Shown here one piece after another: positions 16,483-23,294 of a DNA stretch of 34,290 nucleotides; within the stretch, counting starts at the first letter, position 1; the number at the start of each line of letters is the position of its first letter. A model generated the notes under the pieces. That model was not told the DNA's origin, made no database searches, and was given only the letters and a program-made list of their open reading frames with translations. Source of the stretch: a virus; IMG/VR virus record IMGVR_UViG_3300025132_000141, positions 1 to 34,290 of that record; one strand, given 5' to 3'. The position numbers and the translations under genes were made by a program.

Positions 16483-19413
16483 ATGTCAGTCAAAAAGTAC
16501 AGATTCGTATCCCCTGGAGTTTTCGTCAACGAGATTGACAACTCCCAAGTTCCTGCATCCCCGGCAGGCATCGGTCCCGTAGTTATTGGTACCGCTGAAA
16601 AGGGGCCATCGCTTCGCCCCGTTACAGTTAACTCATTTGAAGAGTTCGTCAACACCTTCGGTACGCCAGTTCGCGGCGGCTCCGCAGAGGATGTGTGGCG
16701 AGAAGGAGCATTCTCCTCGGCTCCTACATATGGTGCCTATGCTGCCCAGGCTTATCTGAAAAACAGTTCCCCTCTCACATATATTCGCCTCCTTGGTGCA
16801 CAGACCACTGCTGACGGCGGACCCTCCACTGGTACAGACGGCGAAGCAGGCTGGAGCAAGAACGAAGCCTATGGTCTTTTTGTTTTCCACGACAACGGTG
16901 GAAAGAGTTCCTCACAGCTTACGGGCGCCCTCGCTGCAGTCTTTTACGGTAACACCGGCACTGAGTTTATGCTTTCCGGCGCCGCCGCCACCTCTGGGTC
17001 GGTGACCGGTCTCCCCGGCATTGCAGTTTCCACCGCCTCTTACACTGGTTCGCACATTGTGGTAGCAGATACGGGCACCAACTATGAGTTCAAGATTTTG
17101 ATTAAGAACGCATCGGGTAGTGCGAATGCTATTTCGACCTTCACTGCCAACTACACCGAGACAGATTCCCGTTACATCCGTAAGGTTTTCAACACAAATG
17201 CACAGAAGACAAACGCTGGTGTGGCAAGCGCGGGCTCTGCACTACAGTATTTCTTAGGAGAAACGTTTGATCGCCACCTGAAGGCAAACGTTAGCCTTAC
17301 CGACATCGCTAATTCTGCGACCGGTCGCACCTTCGGCTCGATGGTGAAGCTCAACAACACCACAGCGGGTAATGGCGGAGACTTCGCAGGTCACAGTGCG
17401 CAGTCTGCCCAGACACCTACTGTTATTTCGTGCCGGCTGTCACCATCGACAGCTCCACAGAACCTGTTTACCATTCACGCTCTTAATGAGCCCGGAGACT
17501 GGTCGAACCGAAACATCAAGGTGTCGATTCAGGATATCCAGCGCTCCCCAACAAACAGCAATCGATATGGCACCTTCAGTGTCGTCGTTCGTGCACTGAG
17601 CGATTCTGACAATGTTGTTCGAATCATTGAGCAGTTTGACGAATGTGACCTCAACCCTGATTCCCTTAATTATGTCGCTCGCAAGGTGGGTAACAAGTAC
17701 CTGGACTGGAATGAGTCCGAGCGTCGATACATCGAGAAGGGCGATTACCATAATAACTCCCGACTCATTCGCCTTGAGATGAACTCTGACGTTGATGCTG
17801 GGCTGACTAACCCATCGCTGTTGCCTTTCGGCTTCCGCGGCATGGTCAAGTATGATGATGAAGAGACCACGGGCGCCAGCGCCGGTCGAGGCAACTGGGC
17901 AACTGGTTCGGTAATCGCTACAGACTTCCCTGCGCTACGAGACGCAGCCGACCGCTGGGCTTCTGGTTCCGTCTTCGCGATTGAGGCTCCTCGCGCGTAT
18001 ATTTCAGTCCCAGGTAACACCCAAGTCAAAGCACTTTACCCAGCTCCCGAGCTGCGCGTTAGTGCTTCGGAGGGCAACCTGAGCAATCGCACAGATGCCT
18101 ACTTTGGCTTGCAGACCACACAGACTGCTGGGGGCACCGTCTTCGACAAGTCGACTATTGACCTCCTGCGCCCACGCGGTGGTATCGTAGGAAATATGTT
18201 TGCCGGCGCAGCCGCAGGAATCCGCGAAGTGTCTGTAGAATTTACCTTGGATGACGTTTCCGGCTCCGATGGTATCTGGATTAGTGGTTCGCACAATGCC
18301 ACAATTGGCGGCACTGCTGGCGGCTCCCTGACCCGCGCTAACGGCGCGATTAGTGGAGTCCTGGACCAGGGCTACGACAGGTTCACAGTGCCCGTGTATG
18401 GCGGCTTCGATGGTGTCAACATCACCGAGATGGATCCATTCAACAGCAGCACTCGTACACTCCCAACCTCTGCTACAGATAAGACTTACTACGCGTTCAA
18501 CTCGATCCGCCGGACGATTGATGCAGTGGCCGATCCAGAGGTCGTAGAGATGAACCTCGCTACAATCCCTGGTCTGCGACAGACAGGTCTTACGGATAAC
18601 CTCATTAACACATGCGAAGACCGTGCAGATGCTCTTGCAATTATCGATCTGCCACAGGGTTACATCCCACGCGCACAGAGCAACGCTTCTGCAGCATCCC
18701 GACGAGGCAATACAGCCAGCGAGATCACTCAGGCAGTGAATGGGCTCCGTTCGCGAGGACTTAACTCTTCCTACGGTTGTGCCTTCTATCCATGGGTCAG
18801 AGGACGCGACACCATCAACGGTGGTGATGTATGGCTTCCGCCATCTATTCCAGCCCTTGGAACCTTCTCTAGCTCCCAGCGTAAGACGCAGGTCTGGTTC
18901 GCACCAGCCGGCTTCAACCGCGGTGGGCTGACTGAAGGCTCTGCAGGTATCCCAGTTGTGGACGTAGCACACCAGCTGCGCCGCAAGGATCGTGACGACC
19001 TTTACACAGCGAACATTAACCCAATCGCCAAGTTCCCAGCAGAGGGTATTGTGATCTTTGGTCAGAAGACTCTGCAGGTTACGCCATCGGCACTCGATCG
19101 TATTAATGTTCGCCGCCTGATGATCTTCGTCAAGAAGCGCATCTCGCAGATCGCAGCTGGACTGCTGTTCGACCCGAACGTACGACAGACATGGCTGCGC
19201 TTTACTGCGCAGGTCAACCCATTCCTCCAGGATGTTAAGACCAACTTCGGTTTGTCTGACTTCAAGGTCGTACTCGACAACTCGACAACCACACCAGAGC
19301 TGGTTGACCGAAACGTCATGTATGCACAGATCTTCCTGAAGCCAACCCGAGCTATTGAGTACATTGCAATTGACTTCAATATCTCGCGATCTGGAGCATC
19401 GTTCGAGGATTAA
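16483..19413 (+). CDS. 18: contractile tail sheath protein, T4 gp18-like
   Basis: A 976-residue sheath protein. The N-terminus RFVSPGVFVNEIDNS is the classic sheath start, followed by GPVVIGTAEKGP and NSFEEFVNTFG. The conserved C-terminal core includes FNRGGLTEGSAGIPVV, LYTANINPIAKFPAEGIVIFGQKTL, INVRRLMIFVKKRISQ and the ending EYIAIDFNISRSGASFED. T4 gp18 has 659 residues, so this is about 300 longer. The extra material sits in the middle (roughly 120-600), where sheath proteins carry surface-exposed insertions. The sheath contracts around the gp19 tube to drive injection. GTAGGAG precedes ATG 16483. Confidence 0.97.
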   Translation: MSVKKYRFVSPGVFVNEIDNSQVPASPAGIGPVVIGTAEKGPSLRPVTVNSFEEFVNTFGTPVRGGSAEDVWREGAFSSAPTYGAYAAQAYLKNSSPLTYIRLLGAQTTADGGPSTGTDGEAGWSKNEAYGLFVFHDNGGKSSSQLTGALAAVFYGNTGTEFMLSGAAATSGSVTGLPGIAVSTASYTGSHIVVADTGTNYEFKILIKNASGSANAISTFTANYTETDSRYIRKVFNTNAQKTNAGVASAGSALQYFLGETFDRHLKANVSLTDIANSATGRTFGSMVKLNNTTAGNGGDFAGHSAQSAQTPTVISCRLSPSTAPQNLFTIHALNEPGDWSNRNIKVSIQDIQRSPTNSNRYGTFSVVVRALSDSDNVVRIIEQFDECDLNPDSLNYVARKVGNKYLDWNESERRYIEKGDYHNNSRLIRLEMNSDVDAGLTNPSLLPFGFRGMVKYDDEETTGASAGRGNWATGSVIATDFPALRDAADRWASGSVFAIEAPRAYISVPGNTQVKALYPAPELRVSASEGNLSNRTDAYFGLQTTQTAGGTVFDKSTIDLLRPRGGIVGNMFAGAAAGIREVSVEFTLDDVSGSDGIWISGSHNATIGGTAGGSLTRANGAISGVLDQGYDRFTVPVYGGFDGVNITEMDPFNSSTRTLPTSATDKTYYAFNSIRRTIDAVADPEVVEMNLATIPGLRQTGLTDNLINTCEDRADALAIIDLPQGYIPRAQSNASAASRRGNTASEITQAVNGLRSRGLNSSYGCAFYPWVRGRDTINGGDVWLPPSIPALGTFSSSQRKTQVWFAPAGFNRGGLTEGSAGIPVVDVAHQLRRKDRDDLYTANINPIAKFPAEGIVIFGQKTLQVTPSALDRINVRRLMIFVKKRISQIAAGLLFDPNVRQTWLRFTAQVNPFLQDVKTNFGLSDFKVVLDNSTTTPELVDRNVMYAQIFLKPTRAIEYIAIDFNISRSGASFED

Positions 19414-19476: not shown

Positions 19477-20052
19477 ATGCCATTTTGGACAAGCGCACTA
19501 TCAGAACCACGGAGATCGCATCGCTTTTTGCTTTCGCTCCCGAACCTTACATCAGCAGATCAGGCGTTTGCCTACGAGCAGTATCTCGCTAAGTCTGTAA
19601 CTAAGCCATCCTTCCAGGTAAGCGAGAAGGATCATAAGTTCTTGGGAAACACCTATTACTACCCCGGTATCGTTACATGGCAGCCAGTCAGCGCGGTTAT
19701 CGTTAACGCGATCAACCCTGACGGCAACCAGGTCATCTATGATGCTCTAGAGCGATCCGGTTACCTTAAGCCCCCCACACAGCAGGAAGTCTTCGAGAAC
19801 GCTGCCCAGGCTCCTGGCACAGTCAACAAGGCTGACGCTGTACGGGCTCTCGGCAATGTCATCATCGAAGAGCTGAATGGCGACGGTGGTCTCGTGGGTA
19901 CATGGACCCTGCAGAATGCATTCATCACAGACGCAAAGTTTGGTGATCTTAACTATGATAATGATGATTTGCTTAACATTGATCTGACTTTCCGGTATGA
20001 TTATGCTGAGTATGTCTCGGGTCCTGCTGTTGCAGCAGCTACAGAACTCTAA
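19477..20052 (+). CDS. 19: tail tube protein, T4 gp19-like
   Basis: A 191-residue protein, close to T4 gp19 (163) with a modest extension. The tube-fold pattern is visible in the body: KSVTKPSFQVSEKDHKFLG, YYYPGIVTWQPVSAVIVN, then GTWTLQNAFITDAKFGDLNYDNDDLLNIDLTFRYDYAEY at the end. It should stack as hexamers inside the sheath. It directly follows the sheath gene as in T4. ATG 19477 has AGGAG upstream. Confidence 0.95.
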   Translation: MPFWTSALSEPRRSHRFLLSLPNLTSADQAFAYEQYLAKSVTKPSFQVSEKDHKFLGNTYYYPGIVTWQPVSAVIVNAINPDGNQVIYDALERSGYLKPPTQQEVFENAAQAPGTVNKADAVRALGNVIIEELNGDGGLVGTWTLQNAFITDAKFGDLNYDNDDLLNIDLTFRYDYAEYVSGPAVAAATEL

Positions 20053-20071
20053 GACTGAAAGAAGGTGACTT

Positions 20072-20914
20072 TTGTCGAGAAGAAATAATAACCAGCGGCT
20101 TGGCGCACCGCACCCCGACGCGCCAACCCCCACCACCCCTGACACATCAGACCTCTTCGCGTTTGTAAACCCAACAGAATTTGTTGAGTTGCCGAGTGGT
20201 GGCGAGTACTACCCAGACGGTCACCCCCTTCAGGGACAGACCGTTATCGAGATCAAGCACATGACGGCTAAGGAGGAGGATATCCTCACCTCCCAGGCGC
20301 TTTTGAATAATGGTCTGGCGATTGATAGGCTTTTGACGTCAGTCATCGTGGATCCTAATATCAAGGTGGACGATCTTCTTTTGGGTGACAAGAATGCTAT
20401 TCTTATTGCCACGCGTATCACAGGTTTCGGTCCCTACTATGAGGTGACAGCCGCTTGTCCTTCTTGCACCAAGGAGGCGCCCTACACTTTTGATCTTACA
20501 CAGCTTAAGCCACAGGACTCTGTGCTTCCAGAGCATGTTAGGAGCGAGGGTGAGGGAGTTTTCTCTTTTGAGCTGCCTGTAAGTCAGGTGCGCATTTATG
20601 TGAGACTCCTAACCTCCCGAGACGAGAAAAAGATCTCTTCTTTACTAATGAACGTAGGTGGTAAAGGCGCTTCGAATCCTGTTACAGGGCTGTTGAAGTC
20701 GATCGTCGTGCAAGCCAATGAGCACACCGACCTCACGGCAGTTCATCAGTTTATAGAGATGATGCCACTTCCGGACGTTAAGGCGATCCGAGACACCTAT
20801 GATGCTATTAAACCCGATCTTGACCTTCGTTTTGACATTAACTGTCCTCACTGCCACGAAGATGGAAAGGTAGGGATGCCCATGACGGCAGCGTTTTTTT
20901 GGCCTAACTCCTGA
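20072..20914 (+). CDS. 26: baseplate hub protein, T4 gp26-like, zero-frame product
   Basis: A 280-residue protein starting at TTG 20072 after AAGGTG. It has the pattern I associate with gp26-like hub proteins: LPSGGEYYPDGHPLQGQTVIEIKHMTAKEEDIL, then DDLLLGDKNAILIATRITGFG. Two CPxC knuckles (C129/C132 and C258/C261) should form a zinc ribbon. It ends FFWPNS just after a run of seven T. A long open frame continues from that run in the +1 frame without any start codon, so a longer form by frameshifting is likely. It lies between the tube and the tape measure, where tail-assembly chaperones with programmed frameshifts usually are. Confidence 0.8.
   Translation: MSRRNNNQRLGAPHPDAPTPTTPDTSDLFAFVNPTEFVELPSGGEYYPDGHPLQGQTVIEIKHMTAKEEDILTSQALLNNGLAIDRLLTSVIVDPNIKVDDLLLGDKNAILIATRITGFGPYYEVTAACPSCTKEAPYTFDLTQLKPQDSVLPEHVRSEGEGVFSFELPVSQVRIYVRLLTSRDEKKISSLLMNVGGKGASNPVTGLLKSIVVQANEHTDLTAVHQFIEMMPLPDVKAIRDTYDAIKPDLDLRFDINCPHCHEDGKVGMPMTAAFFWPNS
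20894..20900 (+). other. T7 run, candidate ribosomal frameshift site
   Basis: In the hub frame this reads GCG TTT TTT TGG. A +1 slip of the Phe-tRNA from TTT 20897-20899 to TTT 20898-20900 keeps perfect pairing and enters the open frame at GGC 20901. A -2 slip is also possible. A one-base homopolymer error in the assembly would look the same. Confidence 0.6.
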
Positions 20915-21083
20915 GTACCAACAGAGTGTTTATGAGGAGTTCTTTCTCCTCAAGCACCACGGCGGTTGGTCCTTCACAGAACTGTACAATTTGCCAGTCG
21001 CGCTACGTCGATGGTTCCTCACTCGGCTTACCGATGAGTTTAAAAAACAAAAAGAACACAATGAGAAAGCGCCACGGAGATAA
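20901..21083 (+). CDS. frameshifted C-terminal extension of the hub protein
   Basis: 60 codons in the +1 frame relative to the hub gene, ending at TAA 21081-21083. The sequence is clearly protein-like: GLTPEYQQSVYEEFFLL, KHHGGWSFTELYNLP, VALRRWFLTRLTDEFKKQ. There is no ATG or GTG in this frame, and TTG appears only halfway, so the conserved-looking part cannot be made from an ordinary start. The preceding in-frame stop is at 20883, so entry must occur between there and 20904; the T7 run lies in that interval. The fusion would be 336 (+1) or 337 (-2) residues. By analogy with lambda G/GT, such an extension just before the tape measure gene could let a chaperone bind the tape measure during tail assembly. 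Confidence 0.7.
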   Translation, partial: GLTPEYQQSVYEEFFLLKHHGGWSFTELYNLPVALRRWFLTRLTDEFKKQKEHNEKAPRR

Positions 21084-21130: not shown

Positions 21131-21457
21131 ATGAATGATATTGTTAACGAACCCATCAATTTGAATAATCTCGGCAAACCTTTGACCGAGAAGGTCTACA
21201 CGCAGTTTGCCAACCAGGTGCGTAGCGCGCTGCTGGATTTGTGGGCGATGGGTTTCGACATACCCCTCAAAGTTAGAGGCACATCCTCCCAGATCGACTC
21301 TTTCATGAAGACATTGGGGAGCGAAAAACGCTACATGGATTCCTACATGAAGCATGGGCTAAACGATCCAAAAACCATGGACTCCAAGTACACTCTGGGT
21401 AGAGCGGTAGAGAGATTCGAAAAAGAGACTGGCTTAAGATGGCCATTTAAAAACTAG
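21131..21457 (+). CDS. unassigned protein before the tape measure
   Basis: A 108-residue, soluble-looking helical protein (KVYTQFANQVRSALLDLWAMG, SQIDSFMKTLGSEKRYMDSY, AVERFEKETGLRWPFK at the end). The GLRWPFK ending and KRYMDSYMKHGL block look like a conserved phage family, but I cannot name it. It sits between the hub/frameshift gene and the tape measure, so a role in tail assembly is a fair guess. ATG 21131 has GTAGGA upstream; an ATG at 21126 is in another frame. Confidence 0.75.
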   Translation: MNDIVNEPINLNNLGKPLTEKVYTQFANQVRSALLDLWAMGFDIPLKVRGTSSQIDSFMKTLGSEKRYMDSYMKHGLNDPKTMDSKYTLGRAVERFEKETGLRWPFKN

Positions 21458-21467
21458 GAGTTTGTAA

Positions 21468-23294
21468 ATGGCAACCTTAGAAGAATTAAAACAACAAGCT
21501 GAAGCCGCACAACGACTCAAAGAAGAAACTGAGGAATACCGCCGCGCACTCGCGCGCCTCAAACTCGAAGAGAAAGACGACGATCATCTCAAGCTCCTGC
21601 AAGAGCAGTACGACAAAGCGGGCGAAAGGCTTAAAGAGCAAACAGCTAAAGTCTCTGAAGCCACCAAAGCACTGCAGGACTATAAGTCCGCCGTCGATAA
21701 CGGCACACGCTCGCAAGACGAATTAGTTTCGGGGTTTTTACAAACTACTACCTCGCTTGGAAGCCTGGGCGCGAGGTACCAAGACCTCACCAAAACCACT
21801 CTTCCAGCCTTCGCAAGTGGGCTCTTTAATGGCGCCAACGCACTCCAGAACCTCGGCGCTGTCGGTACCAAAGTTATCGATATGTTTGCGGAGTTTGGAA
21901 TCCAGCAAGATAAGGTCATTGCGCAGTTCCGAGCCAACACTGGTGCGGGAGAGGAGTTCAACCAGGTTATTCGTGACACAGCTTTGGCAAACATTCAAGC
22001 TGGCGTCGGACTAGAAGATACAGTTGCCGCCATCACAGCGCTCAAGAATGAGTTCACAGACTTTACTTACCTAAACCAGGAGCAGCAGCTGGAAGTCGCC
22101 GAGACAACAACGCTCCTAAACAAGCTTGGTTTTAGTTTCTCCACTCAGGCATCCATTATCCAGGACGCCACGCAGGCACTTGGAATGGATGTGGGTGAAG
22201 CCCAAGAACTGTTGCTTGATCTTGCTTCAACGGCGCGCTCTTTGGGCGTGGATGTAAATGAGCTGGGCGCCCAGTTCAATCAAAACATCGACTTTATTGT
22301 TCGCTTCGGCGAAGATGGACAAGAGGTCTTTGAAGAGATGGCAGTTGCTGCTAAGGCGCTTGGGCTCGAAATGGGTAGCCTGATTAAGATTACTGATTCT
22401 TTCAAAACCTTTGACGAAGGCGCTCGCATCGTAGGGCGATTCAATGCTATTCTCGGTGGACCATTCTTGAATTCGATCGAGATGTTAAACGCGTCGTATG
22501 AGGACCCAATAGAAGGCATTAAAATGCTTCGCGATGGCTTCGATGCTGCTGGGCGATCCATTGAAGAATTGGGAGGAGCAGAGCTGGAAGCACTCAGCTC
22601 AGCACTTGGTCTTACCACCAGCGAAACCAAGAAACTTCTTGGAGCAACCAACGAGGAGTTGGAAATCCAGCGTATGGAGCAGGAACAACTGGCCGAAACA
22701 GCTCAAGCCGCACAGGATGTAATGACGCAGTTAAGCAACGCGTTTAAACAGATACTAGCTGACGGAAAGCCATTTATCGATAACGTGGTTATACCACTAA
22801 TGGAGGGGATTGGATCTATTGCCTCCTTCTTGGGAGATGCCGAGAGTGCTATGTCAAGTTTTGTGCGTGTTGGCATAGCCGCCGCTGGTGTAGCCGCGAT
22901 CCTAGCAGCGCCATTTACAGGTGGCGCCTCCCTTGCCGCCTTCGCCGGGGTCGTCGGTGCAGGCTTCGGCACGGCAGCAGCGGTCAACACTGAGTTTGGC
23001 GGAGGTGGCGGAGCCACGGGCGGAGGCGCTCCTATACCAGGATTCCAGACTGGCGGCATGATTACAACGCCCCAAGCAATCGTTCACCCTGGTGAGATGC
23101 TCATCACAGGGGGGGAGGGATCCGACGTTATATCCGCGAAGAAGTTTGATGAATTGATCGATGCGGTGAAGCAAGAAAAAGGACCTTCCCAGGTTGCGGT
23201 ATACCTTGGACAAGAGAAACTAGATGACATGATGGTAAAGAGTATTGACTCCCCAGCAGGTCGCCGCGCTTTTAACCCTTTCGGGAACGGATAA
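21468..23294 (+). CDS. tape measure protein (functional counterpart of T4 gp29)
   Basis: A 608-residue protein with the architecture of tape measures. A strong N-terminal coiled coil (about 1-85) is followed by a long Ala-rich helical body. A hydrophobic Gly/Ala segment (about 465-510, VGIAAAGVAAILAAPFTGG) and a glycine-rich linker (GGGGGATGGGAP) precede a C-terminal segment GGMITTPQAIVHPGEMLI (from about 528) of the type found near tape measure ends. At the usual 1.5 Angstrom per residue it would set a tail of roughly 90 nm. It follows the frameshift region as tape measure genes commonly do. Confidence 0.8.
   Translation: MATLEELKQQAEAAQRLKEETEEYRRALARLKLEEKDDDHLKLLQEQYDKAGERLKEQTAKVSEATKALQDYKSAVDNGTRSQDELVSGFLQTTTSLGSLGARYQDLTKTTLPAFASGLFNGANALQNLGAVGTKVIDMFAEFGIQQDKVIAQFRANTGAGEEFNQVIRDTALANIQAGVGLEDTVAAITALKNEFTDFTYLNQEQQLEVAETTTLLNKLGFSFSTQASIIQDATQALGMDVGEAQELLLDLASTARSLGVDVNELGAQFNQNIDFIVRFGEDGQEVFEEMAVAAKALGLEMGSLIKITDSFKTFDEGARIVGRFNAILGGPFLNSIEMLNASYEDPIEGIKMLRDGFDAAGRSIEELGGAELEALSSALGLTTSETKKLLGATNEELEIQRMEQEQLAETAQAAQDVMTQLSNAFKQILADGKPFIDNVVIPLMEGIGSIASFLGDAESAMSSFVRVGIAAAGVAAILAAPFTGGASLAAFAGVVGAGFGTAAAVNTEFGGGGGATGGGAPIPGFQTGGMITTPQAIVHPGEMLITGGEGSDVISAKKFDELIDAVKQEKGPSQVAVYLGQEKLDDMMVKSIDSPAGRRAFNPFGNG

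Follow-up and report, generated by a model that had tools for sequence, protein, structure and literature searches.

A probable programmed +1 frameshift in a gp26-like tail assembly chaperone gene of T4-like phages

Gene Content of the Locus

The window, which is the whole stretch of DNA analysed here, comprises the 34,290 nucleotides of IMG/VR virus record IMGVR_UViG_3300025132_000141. Its tail genes follow one another in the order sheath, tube, gp26-like gene, extension, small open reading frame (ORF) and tape measure, which places the gp26-like gene (20072-20914) between the tube gene (19477-20052) and the tape measure gene (21468-23294). The remaining features are collected in Table 1. For the small ORF at 21131-21457, Pfam gives no match at E <= 1 and PHROG only one at chance level. 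The gp26-like gene begins with a TTG codon and encodes a zero-frame product of 280 amino acids that ends in MTAAFFWPNS. An earlier sequence-only reading of this DNA had noted a run of seven T nucleotides near the end of the gene, and its coordinates for this run (20894-20900) and for the rest of the locus are correct. It also gave the C-terminus as FFWPNS, which is borne out; however, it placed this end five codons after the last Phe codon, where there are only four (W, P, N and S).

Table 1. Positions of the chaperone gene, its predicted recoding elements and neighbouring tail genes in IMGVR_UViG_3300025132_000141
Feature	Position	Strand	Basis
Tail sheath (context)	16483..19413	+	Pfam Phage_sheath_1C, E = 1.7e-7
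Tail tube (context)	19477..20052	+	PHROG 4542 tail tube, E = 1.3e-20
Shine-Dalgarno-like AGAAGG ahead of the TTG start of the chaperone gene	20060..20065	+	Sequence reading
Short chaperone (TAC-N, gp26-like), 280 aa, zero-frame product	20072..20914	+	PF12322, PHROG 150, AlphaFold2/BFVD
+1-frame TGA stop, upstream bound of the shift window	20883..20885	+	Sequence and relatives
Putative slip site TTT TTT TGG (T7 = 20894-20900)	20894..20902	+	Predicted tRNA-Phe +1 re-pairing in the P site; GGC at 20901 next
Zero-frame TGA stop of the short product	20912..20914	+	Translation
Extension domain after the predicted +1 shift, 60 codons and TAA	20901..21083	+	Conservation, pN/pS, AlphaFold2
Long chaperone (TAC-NC), 336 aa, predicted frameshift product	20072..21083	+	Translation with TTTT as one Phe
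Small ORF, 108 aa, between chaperone and tape measure (context)	21131..21457	+	ORF
Tape measure protein (context)	21468..23294	+	PHROG 167 tail length tape measure, E = 1.1e-11

The Short gp26-Like Protein

The zero-frame product matches Pfam family PF12322 (T4_baseplate, the T4 gp26/gp51 family) with E = 1.2e-16 and 61.5 bits, well over the cut-off of 24.5, and PHROG 150 (baseplate hub) with E = 4e-18. Both gp26 and gp51 of T4 belong to PF12322 (E = 8.8e-64 and 3.9e-52, respectively). The short protein and the extension were modelled as two separate parts. An AlphaFold2 model of the short protein, computed from a 27-row alignment, has a mean pLDDT of 83 and matches predicted gp26-type baseplate or hub proteins in a Foldseek search of BFVD, with E-values down to 2e-21. 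Among these fold matches are the baseplate hub subunit of Bacillus phage SP-15 (E = 3e-19) and gp26 of Aeromonas phage 25 (E = 1.6e-6); no solved PDB structure was matched by the model. Judged by its sequence, the gene product is a homologue of the gp26/gp51-type assembly chaperones and not a proven hub subunit, and the label "hub gene" used in the sequence-only reading is better replaced by this PF12322 assignment than kept as the name of a structural gene.

An Extension in the +1 Frame

A TGA at 20883-20885 closes the +1 frame upstream and bounds the way into the extension just as the sequence-only reading had proposed. From 20886 the frame is then open to a TAA codon at 21081-21083 and codes for RQRFFGLTPEYQQSVYEEFFLLKHHGGWSFTELYNLPVALRRWFLTRLTDEFKKQKEHNEKAPRR. 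This frame holds no ATG, GTG or TTG before a single TTG that lies deep within the conserved part, and an internal start for the extension in the window was rejected because no start codon is available. If TTTT is read as a single Phe, then the frameshift product has 336 amino acids. The products that had been anticipated, of 280 and about 336 residues, agree with the translated lengths.

Selection on the extension is confined to one frame. Over 634 sequence pairs its median pN/pS is 0.139 in the +1 frame and 1.25 and 3.0 in the other two frames, and the preceding part of the short protein has a pN/pS of 0.173; the pairs are not independent, but the contrast between the +1 frame and the other frames is nonetheless large. 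By this measure the extension is under strong purifying selection solely in the +1 frame. The 60-codon stretch that had been called protein-like and without a usable start is therefore substantiated by this low ratio and by its conservation in 158 of 158 loci. An AlphaFold2 model of the extension (P0002) has helices at residues 9-25, 31-34 and 38-61 with a mean pLDDT of 74, and a fold search with the extension alone gave no match. When 23 extension sequences were compared with DUF6760 (PF20546), 18 matched at E <= 1, the best with E = 3.4e-4; the extension of the window scores 15.3 bits, below the Pfam cut-off of 27 bits. This resemblance is suggestive only.

By gene order and homology, the short gp26-like protein and its long fusion would make up a tail assembly chaperone pair of the lambda gpG/gpGT type. 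The chaperone function of the pair is proposed by analogy with lambda.

Conservation of the Junction among Relatives

We took 158 near-relative loci from IMG/VR, which reduce to 91 distinct junctions when duplicates are removed. The extension is in the identical +1 frame in every one of these loci, and alignment of the 91 distinct junctions reveals the conservation of two frames with a shared slip site that the sequence-only reading had suggested looking for. This site is TTT_TTT_TGG in 88 junctions and TTC_TTT_TGG in three (L060, L062 and L078). Searching with the immuto gene (Flavobacterium phage immuto) brings in a second clade of 57 distinct junctions, all of them +1 where the contig includes the extension. 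Here the sites are TTT_TTT_TGG, TTT_CTT_TGG, TTT_CTA_TGG (L178, L189 and L200) and, in one case, TTT_CTT_TAC. The predicted P-site codon with its following base is consequently shift-prone in both clades: it is TTT_T in 91 of 91 near junctions and TTT_T, CTT_T or TTT_C in the second clade.

The same +1 arrangement occurs in the isolates Microcystis phage Mel-JY01 (TTT TTT TGG), immuto itself (TTT CTT TGG) and Rhodothermus phage RM378, which has TTT TTT TGG despite just a 28% protein match to the immuto protein. Three metagenome-assembled-genome contigs share the junction in a genome scan, and a wider search with the gene of Bacillus phage SP-15 returned only SP-15 itself.

This distribution bears on the concern, raised in the sequence-only reading, that a wrong count in the T run, a classic place for such errors, could have split what is truly one fused gene with six T. 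An assembly or homopolymer error of this kind is refuted by the relatives. The frame break is common to the 158 loci, which come from many independent metagenomes, and to isolate genomes (Mel-JY01, RM378 and immuto show the same frame change), and it includes variants that have no T7 run at all; no fused six-T version exists among the relatives.

The extension could alternatively be a separate small protein that is translated from an internal start or by coupling to the upstream stop. Separate genes are annotated in Mel-JY01, RM378 and the cyanophages, a TAATG overlap is present in the -1 frame in LR756511, 121Q and Cygsa01, and the open extension frame contains some ATG, GTG or TTG in a minority of near junctions (36 of 91) and in most second-clade junctions (48 of 65). 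However, start codons are absent from the upstream stop to 30 nucleotides past the slip in 55 of the 91 near junctions, the window included, and a conserved FGL lies upstream of every candidate start past the slip. Independent initiation would also leave the synonymous invariance of the slip codons unexplained. We regard a separate protein as very unlikely and favor a frameshift as the way into the extension.

Several phages depart from this pattern. Three phages of Gram-positive bacteria, SP-15 (L162, 3748-3750), Listeria phage LIS04 (L164, 3706-3708) and Streptococcus phage GXN1 (L163, 3748-3750), have a +1 extension after a gp26-like gene, and their shift point may be NCC_CGA (GCC_CGA, ACC_CGA and CCC_CGA) instead of Phe codons. 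In LR756508 the +1 extension comes with an ATG and lacks an evident slip site, and S-SCSM1 has a +1 extension together with an ATG.

Location and Direction of the Shift

Constraints on both sides confine the predicted shift to a short interval. The upstream +1-frame stop restricts it to codons after 20885, and a stop in this frame sits four codons upstream of the slip in 52 of the 91 distinct relatives. On the downstream side, the third base of the codon that follows TGG is T in every one of the 91 junctions (CCT in 83 and ACT in 8), whereas T is the third base in 27% of the Pro and Thr codons of the same genes; chance values quoted for this and the other junction statistics ignore shared ancestry. 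This T is free in the zero frame and fixes Leu (CTN) of the Gly-Leu pair in the +1 frame. Selection on the +1 frame is therefore already acting at this position, and the shift must come before it.

Within this bounded interval, the two TTT codons are the sole codons that permit full re-pairing in the +1 frame. TTT encodes the second Phe in 91 of 91 junctions against a background of 74%. The base preceding the Phe pair is T in only 1 of 91 and 0 of 65 junctions of the +1 clades, where the backgrounds are 34% and 39%, and the lone junction with a T at this position has TTC as its first Phe codon.

The sequence of the window by itself is equally compatible with a -2 frameshift at the T run, which would give the same frame with one extra Phe, because TTT_TTT_TGG also allows perfect re-pairing after a -2 slip. 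The variant sites distinguish these two directions. Both TTC_TTT_TGG and TTT_CTA_TGG permit re-pairing in +1 and not in -2, and a -2 shift is accordingly improbable. Transcriptional slippage would instead produce mRNAs with one base more or fewer and involve no ribosomal shift, and runs of seven T do slip to some extent. Some relatives keep the frame arrangement with T runs of just four or three (TTCTTTTGG, TTTCTTTGG and TTTCTATGG), so that slippage of the polymerase is a highly improbable source of the long form. Since the TTC_TTT_TGG and TTT_CTA_TGG junctions argue against both of these alternatives, +1 slippage of the P-site tRNA-Phe remains.

Comparative sequence evidence makes it very probable that the gene at 20072-20914 encodes a tail assembly chaperone (TAC) and uses programmed +1 ribosomal frameshifting; the occurrence of the shift and its efficiency are both inferred. 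The sequence-only reading had centred on a programmed frameshift at this T run and had likened it to the frameshifted chaperones that lambda and other phages make ahead of the tape measure; such a shift, with a chaperone pair as its outcome, is still the best account of the locus.

An antizyme-like UCC_UGA at the window's own stop (20909-20914) was considered as another shift site and rejected. The last codons vary freely among relatives, and the CCT is constrained by +1 coding.

Candidate Stimulators and Proposed Mechanism

RNAalifold predicts 0 conserved pairs around the slip site, either in a stem-loop or in a pseudoknot, and a Shine-Dalgarno sequence like that of release factor 2 (RF2) is not seen 3-6 nucleotides upstream. 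Because neither a conserved RNA structure nor an RF2-like Shine-Dalgarno is found, the efficiency of the shift may be low. Purine-rich, GGAGG-like stretches are enriched approximately 15-30 nucleotides upstream (24 of 47, with 8.6 expected). They encode residues of the protein, and their enrichment may reflect these codons only. In the +1 clades almost every junction has TGG in the predicted A site, and in the -1 clade described below other codons take its place, which suggests that UGG is part of the frameshift signal.

In the mechanism that we propose, the short gp26-like chaperone would come from the majority of ribosomes, which read 20072-20914 to its end. A smaller number would pause where UUU holds peptidyl-tRNA-Phe and the Trp codon UGG occupies the A site, and the paused tRNA-Phe could then slip one base forward and re-pair with UUU. 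Reading would continue as GGC CUA ACU and onward, adding a 60-residue helical domain to give the 336-residue fusion. The rate of forward slipping by tRNA-Phe on UUU, with UGG waiting, would fix the ratio of short to long product. By analogy with lambda gpG/gpGT, many short and few long copies may coat the tape measure protein, and the extension may recruit tail tube subunits.

A -1 Counterpart in Cyanophages and Other T4-Like Phages

The homologous gene of cyanophage-type T4-like phages ends (AGT/TCT/GCT) TTT TTC NNN TAG, and its extension is in the -1 frame. T_TTT_TTC is a classical -1 heptamer. A T stands ahead of the Phe pair in every one of the 75 correctly located cyanophage junctions with T_TTT_TTC (two further junctions are mis-located and were left out), against a background of 44%. 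The -1 frame stays open over 40 codons or more in 73 of the 77 cyanophage-type junctions; the four that fall short comprise the two mis-located junctions, one that reaches the end of its contig, and L312, which is unexplained. Since the base and codon choices at the junction are opposite in the +1 and -1 clades, the same Phe-Phe dipeptide is encoded oppositely according to the direction of the shift. The cyanophage product known as "gp51 hub assembly catalyst" probably arises as a frameshift extension and not from a separate gene.

Jumbo phages 121Q (L251, near 3705) and XacN1 (L250, near 3789) and Vibrio phage Bakedbeans also have a -1 extension at T_TTT_TTC or T_TTT_TTT; in 121Q an ATG additionally overlaps the stop. 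Annotators name the small ORF at the cyanophage-type and Vibrio loci (L259-L261 and L263-L342) "gp51 baseplate hub assembly catalyst"; its -1 frame runs without a stop as far back as the T_TTT_TTC that ends gp26, and through it.

Profile comparisons connect these extensions to T4. The extension profile of the clade of the window aligns with the cyanophage extension profile (hhalign E = 1e-6), and the cyanophage profile in turn matches T4 gp51 over its final 50 residues (E = 4e-6), both values being for single pairwise comparisons. The profile of this clade compared directly with T4 gp51 gave no significant match, and an extension follows neither gene 26 nor gene 51 of T4. Taken together, the two alignments suggest that in T4 two genes supply the two forms, gp26 the short one and gp51 the fused long one.

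Relation to Known Systems

In a major review, long-tailed phages are said to conserve the tail-gene frameshift, "except T4" (Atkins et al. 2016, PMC5009743). Lambda places many short and few long chaperones (gpG and gpGT) on its tape measure, and the extension of the long form brings tube subunits (PMC5009743). The shift in lambda and most known chaperone frameshifts are -1, but this direction is common rather than required, as a +1 case has been reported (PMC5009743). The tail chaperone of the haloarchaeal myovirus HSTV-2 very likely uses a +1 frameshift (Atkins et al. 2016, PMC5009743). For T4-like phages, Vladimirov, Gautam and Davidson (2022, Virology 566:9-15) are reported to have identified the chaperone genes. 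According to papers citing that work, some T4-like phages have separate short and fused chaperone genes, and poly-T -1 sites are described in T4-like chaperone genes. The sequence-only reading was aware of no frameshift on a T4-type gp26, a view that must be revised given these descriptions and the -1 sites that cyanophages and other T4-like phages carry in this gene.

Compared by layout, the locus resembles lambda gpG/gpGT in its position between tube and tape measure, in the N-terminus shared by the two forms and in the frameshifted C-terminal extension near the gene end. It differs in the predicted +1 direction, in its UUU_UUU_UGG site and in belonging to the gp26 family with zinc-ribbon-like cysteines. 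The short protein falls in the same family (PF12322) as T4 gp26 and gp51, and gp51 is a natural in-frame fusion with a C-terminus that matches the cyanophage extensions; however, T4 uses two genes and no frameshift, whereas one gene here would give both forms. Cyanophage (Kyanoviridae) gp26 is the closest counterpart, being the same gene with the same FF dipeptide at the junction and a homologous extension, but its shift is -1 and its second Phe codon is TTC with a T preceding the pair, which are the opposite codon choices. With HSTV-2 the locus shares a probable +1 shift in a tail chaperone pair; HSTV-2 is an archaeal virus, and the comparison covers direction and kind of gene.

Outside of phages, the bacterial RF2 gene (prfB) has a +1 frameshift at CUU_UGA. 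The predicted P-site re-pairing on (C/U)UU_U is similar, and the immuto clade even has CTT_TGG. Unlike prfB, the A site here holds a sense Trp codon instead of a stop, there is no Shine-Dalgarno at the RF2 spacing and no autoregulation is involved.

Our literature search, which covered few subscription journals, found no description of a +1 site of this type in T4-like chaperone genes. The novelty is confined to the +1 form and its distribution, the tail chaperone frameshift itself being known. We lean toward the broader interpretation that a large part of the T4-like superfamily sets its chaperone ratio by +1 slippage at UUU_UUU_UGG-C, an undescribed signal that would operate on a sense Trp codon without a stop codon, Shine-Dalgarno or RNA-structure stimulator, and that the junction has switched in evolution among a -1 site (T_TTT_TTC), a +1 site and gene duplication (T4 26/51). 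The T4-type chaperone, with two shift polarities at one Phe-Phe junction and the duplicated genes of T4, offers a natural set of cases in which to study how the direction of a recoding signal evolves. Its +1 site is minimal (nine bases), which should make it an easy system for the study of +1 slippage on a sense codon.

One practical consequence is that annotations of phage genomes overlook the extension or record it wrongly. In immuto (L160, 4139-4249), RM378 (L249, 3701-3877) and Mel-JY01 (L159, 3989-4225), public annotations let it begin at arbitrary internal codons or cut it short, because the frameshift was not recognised.
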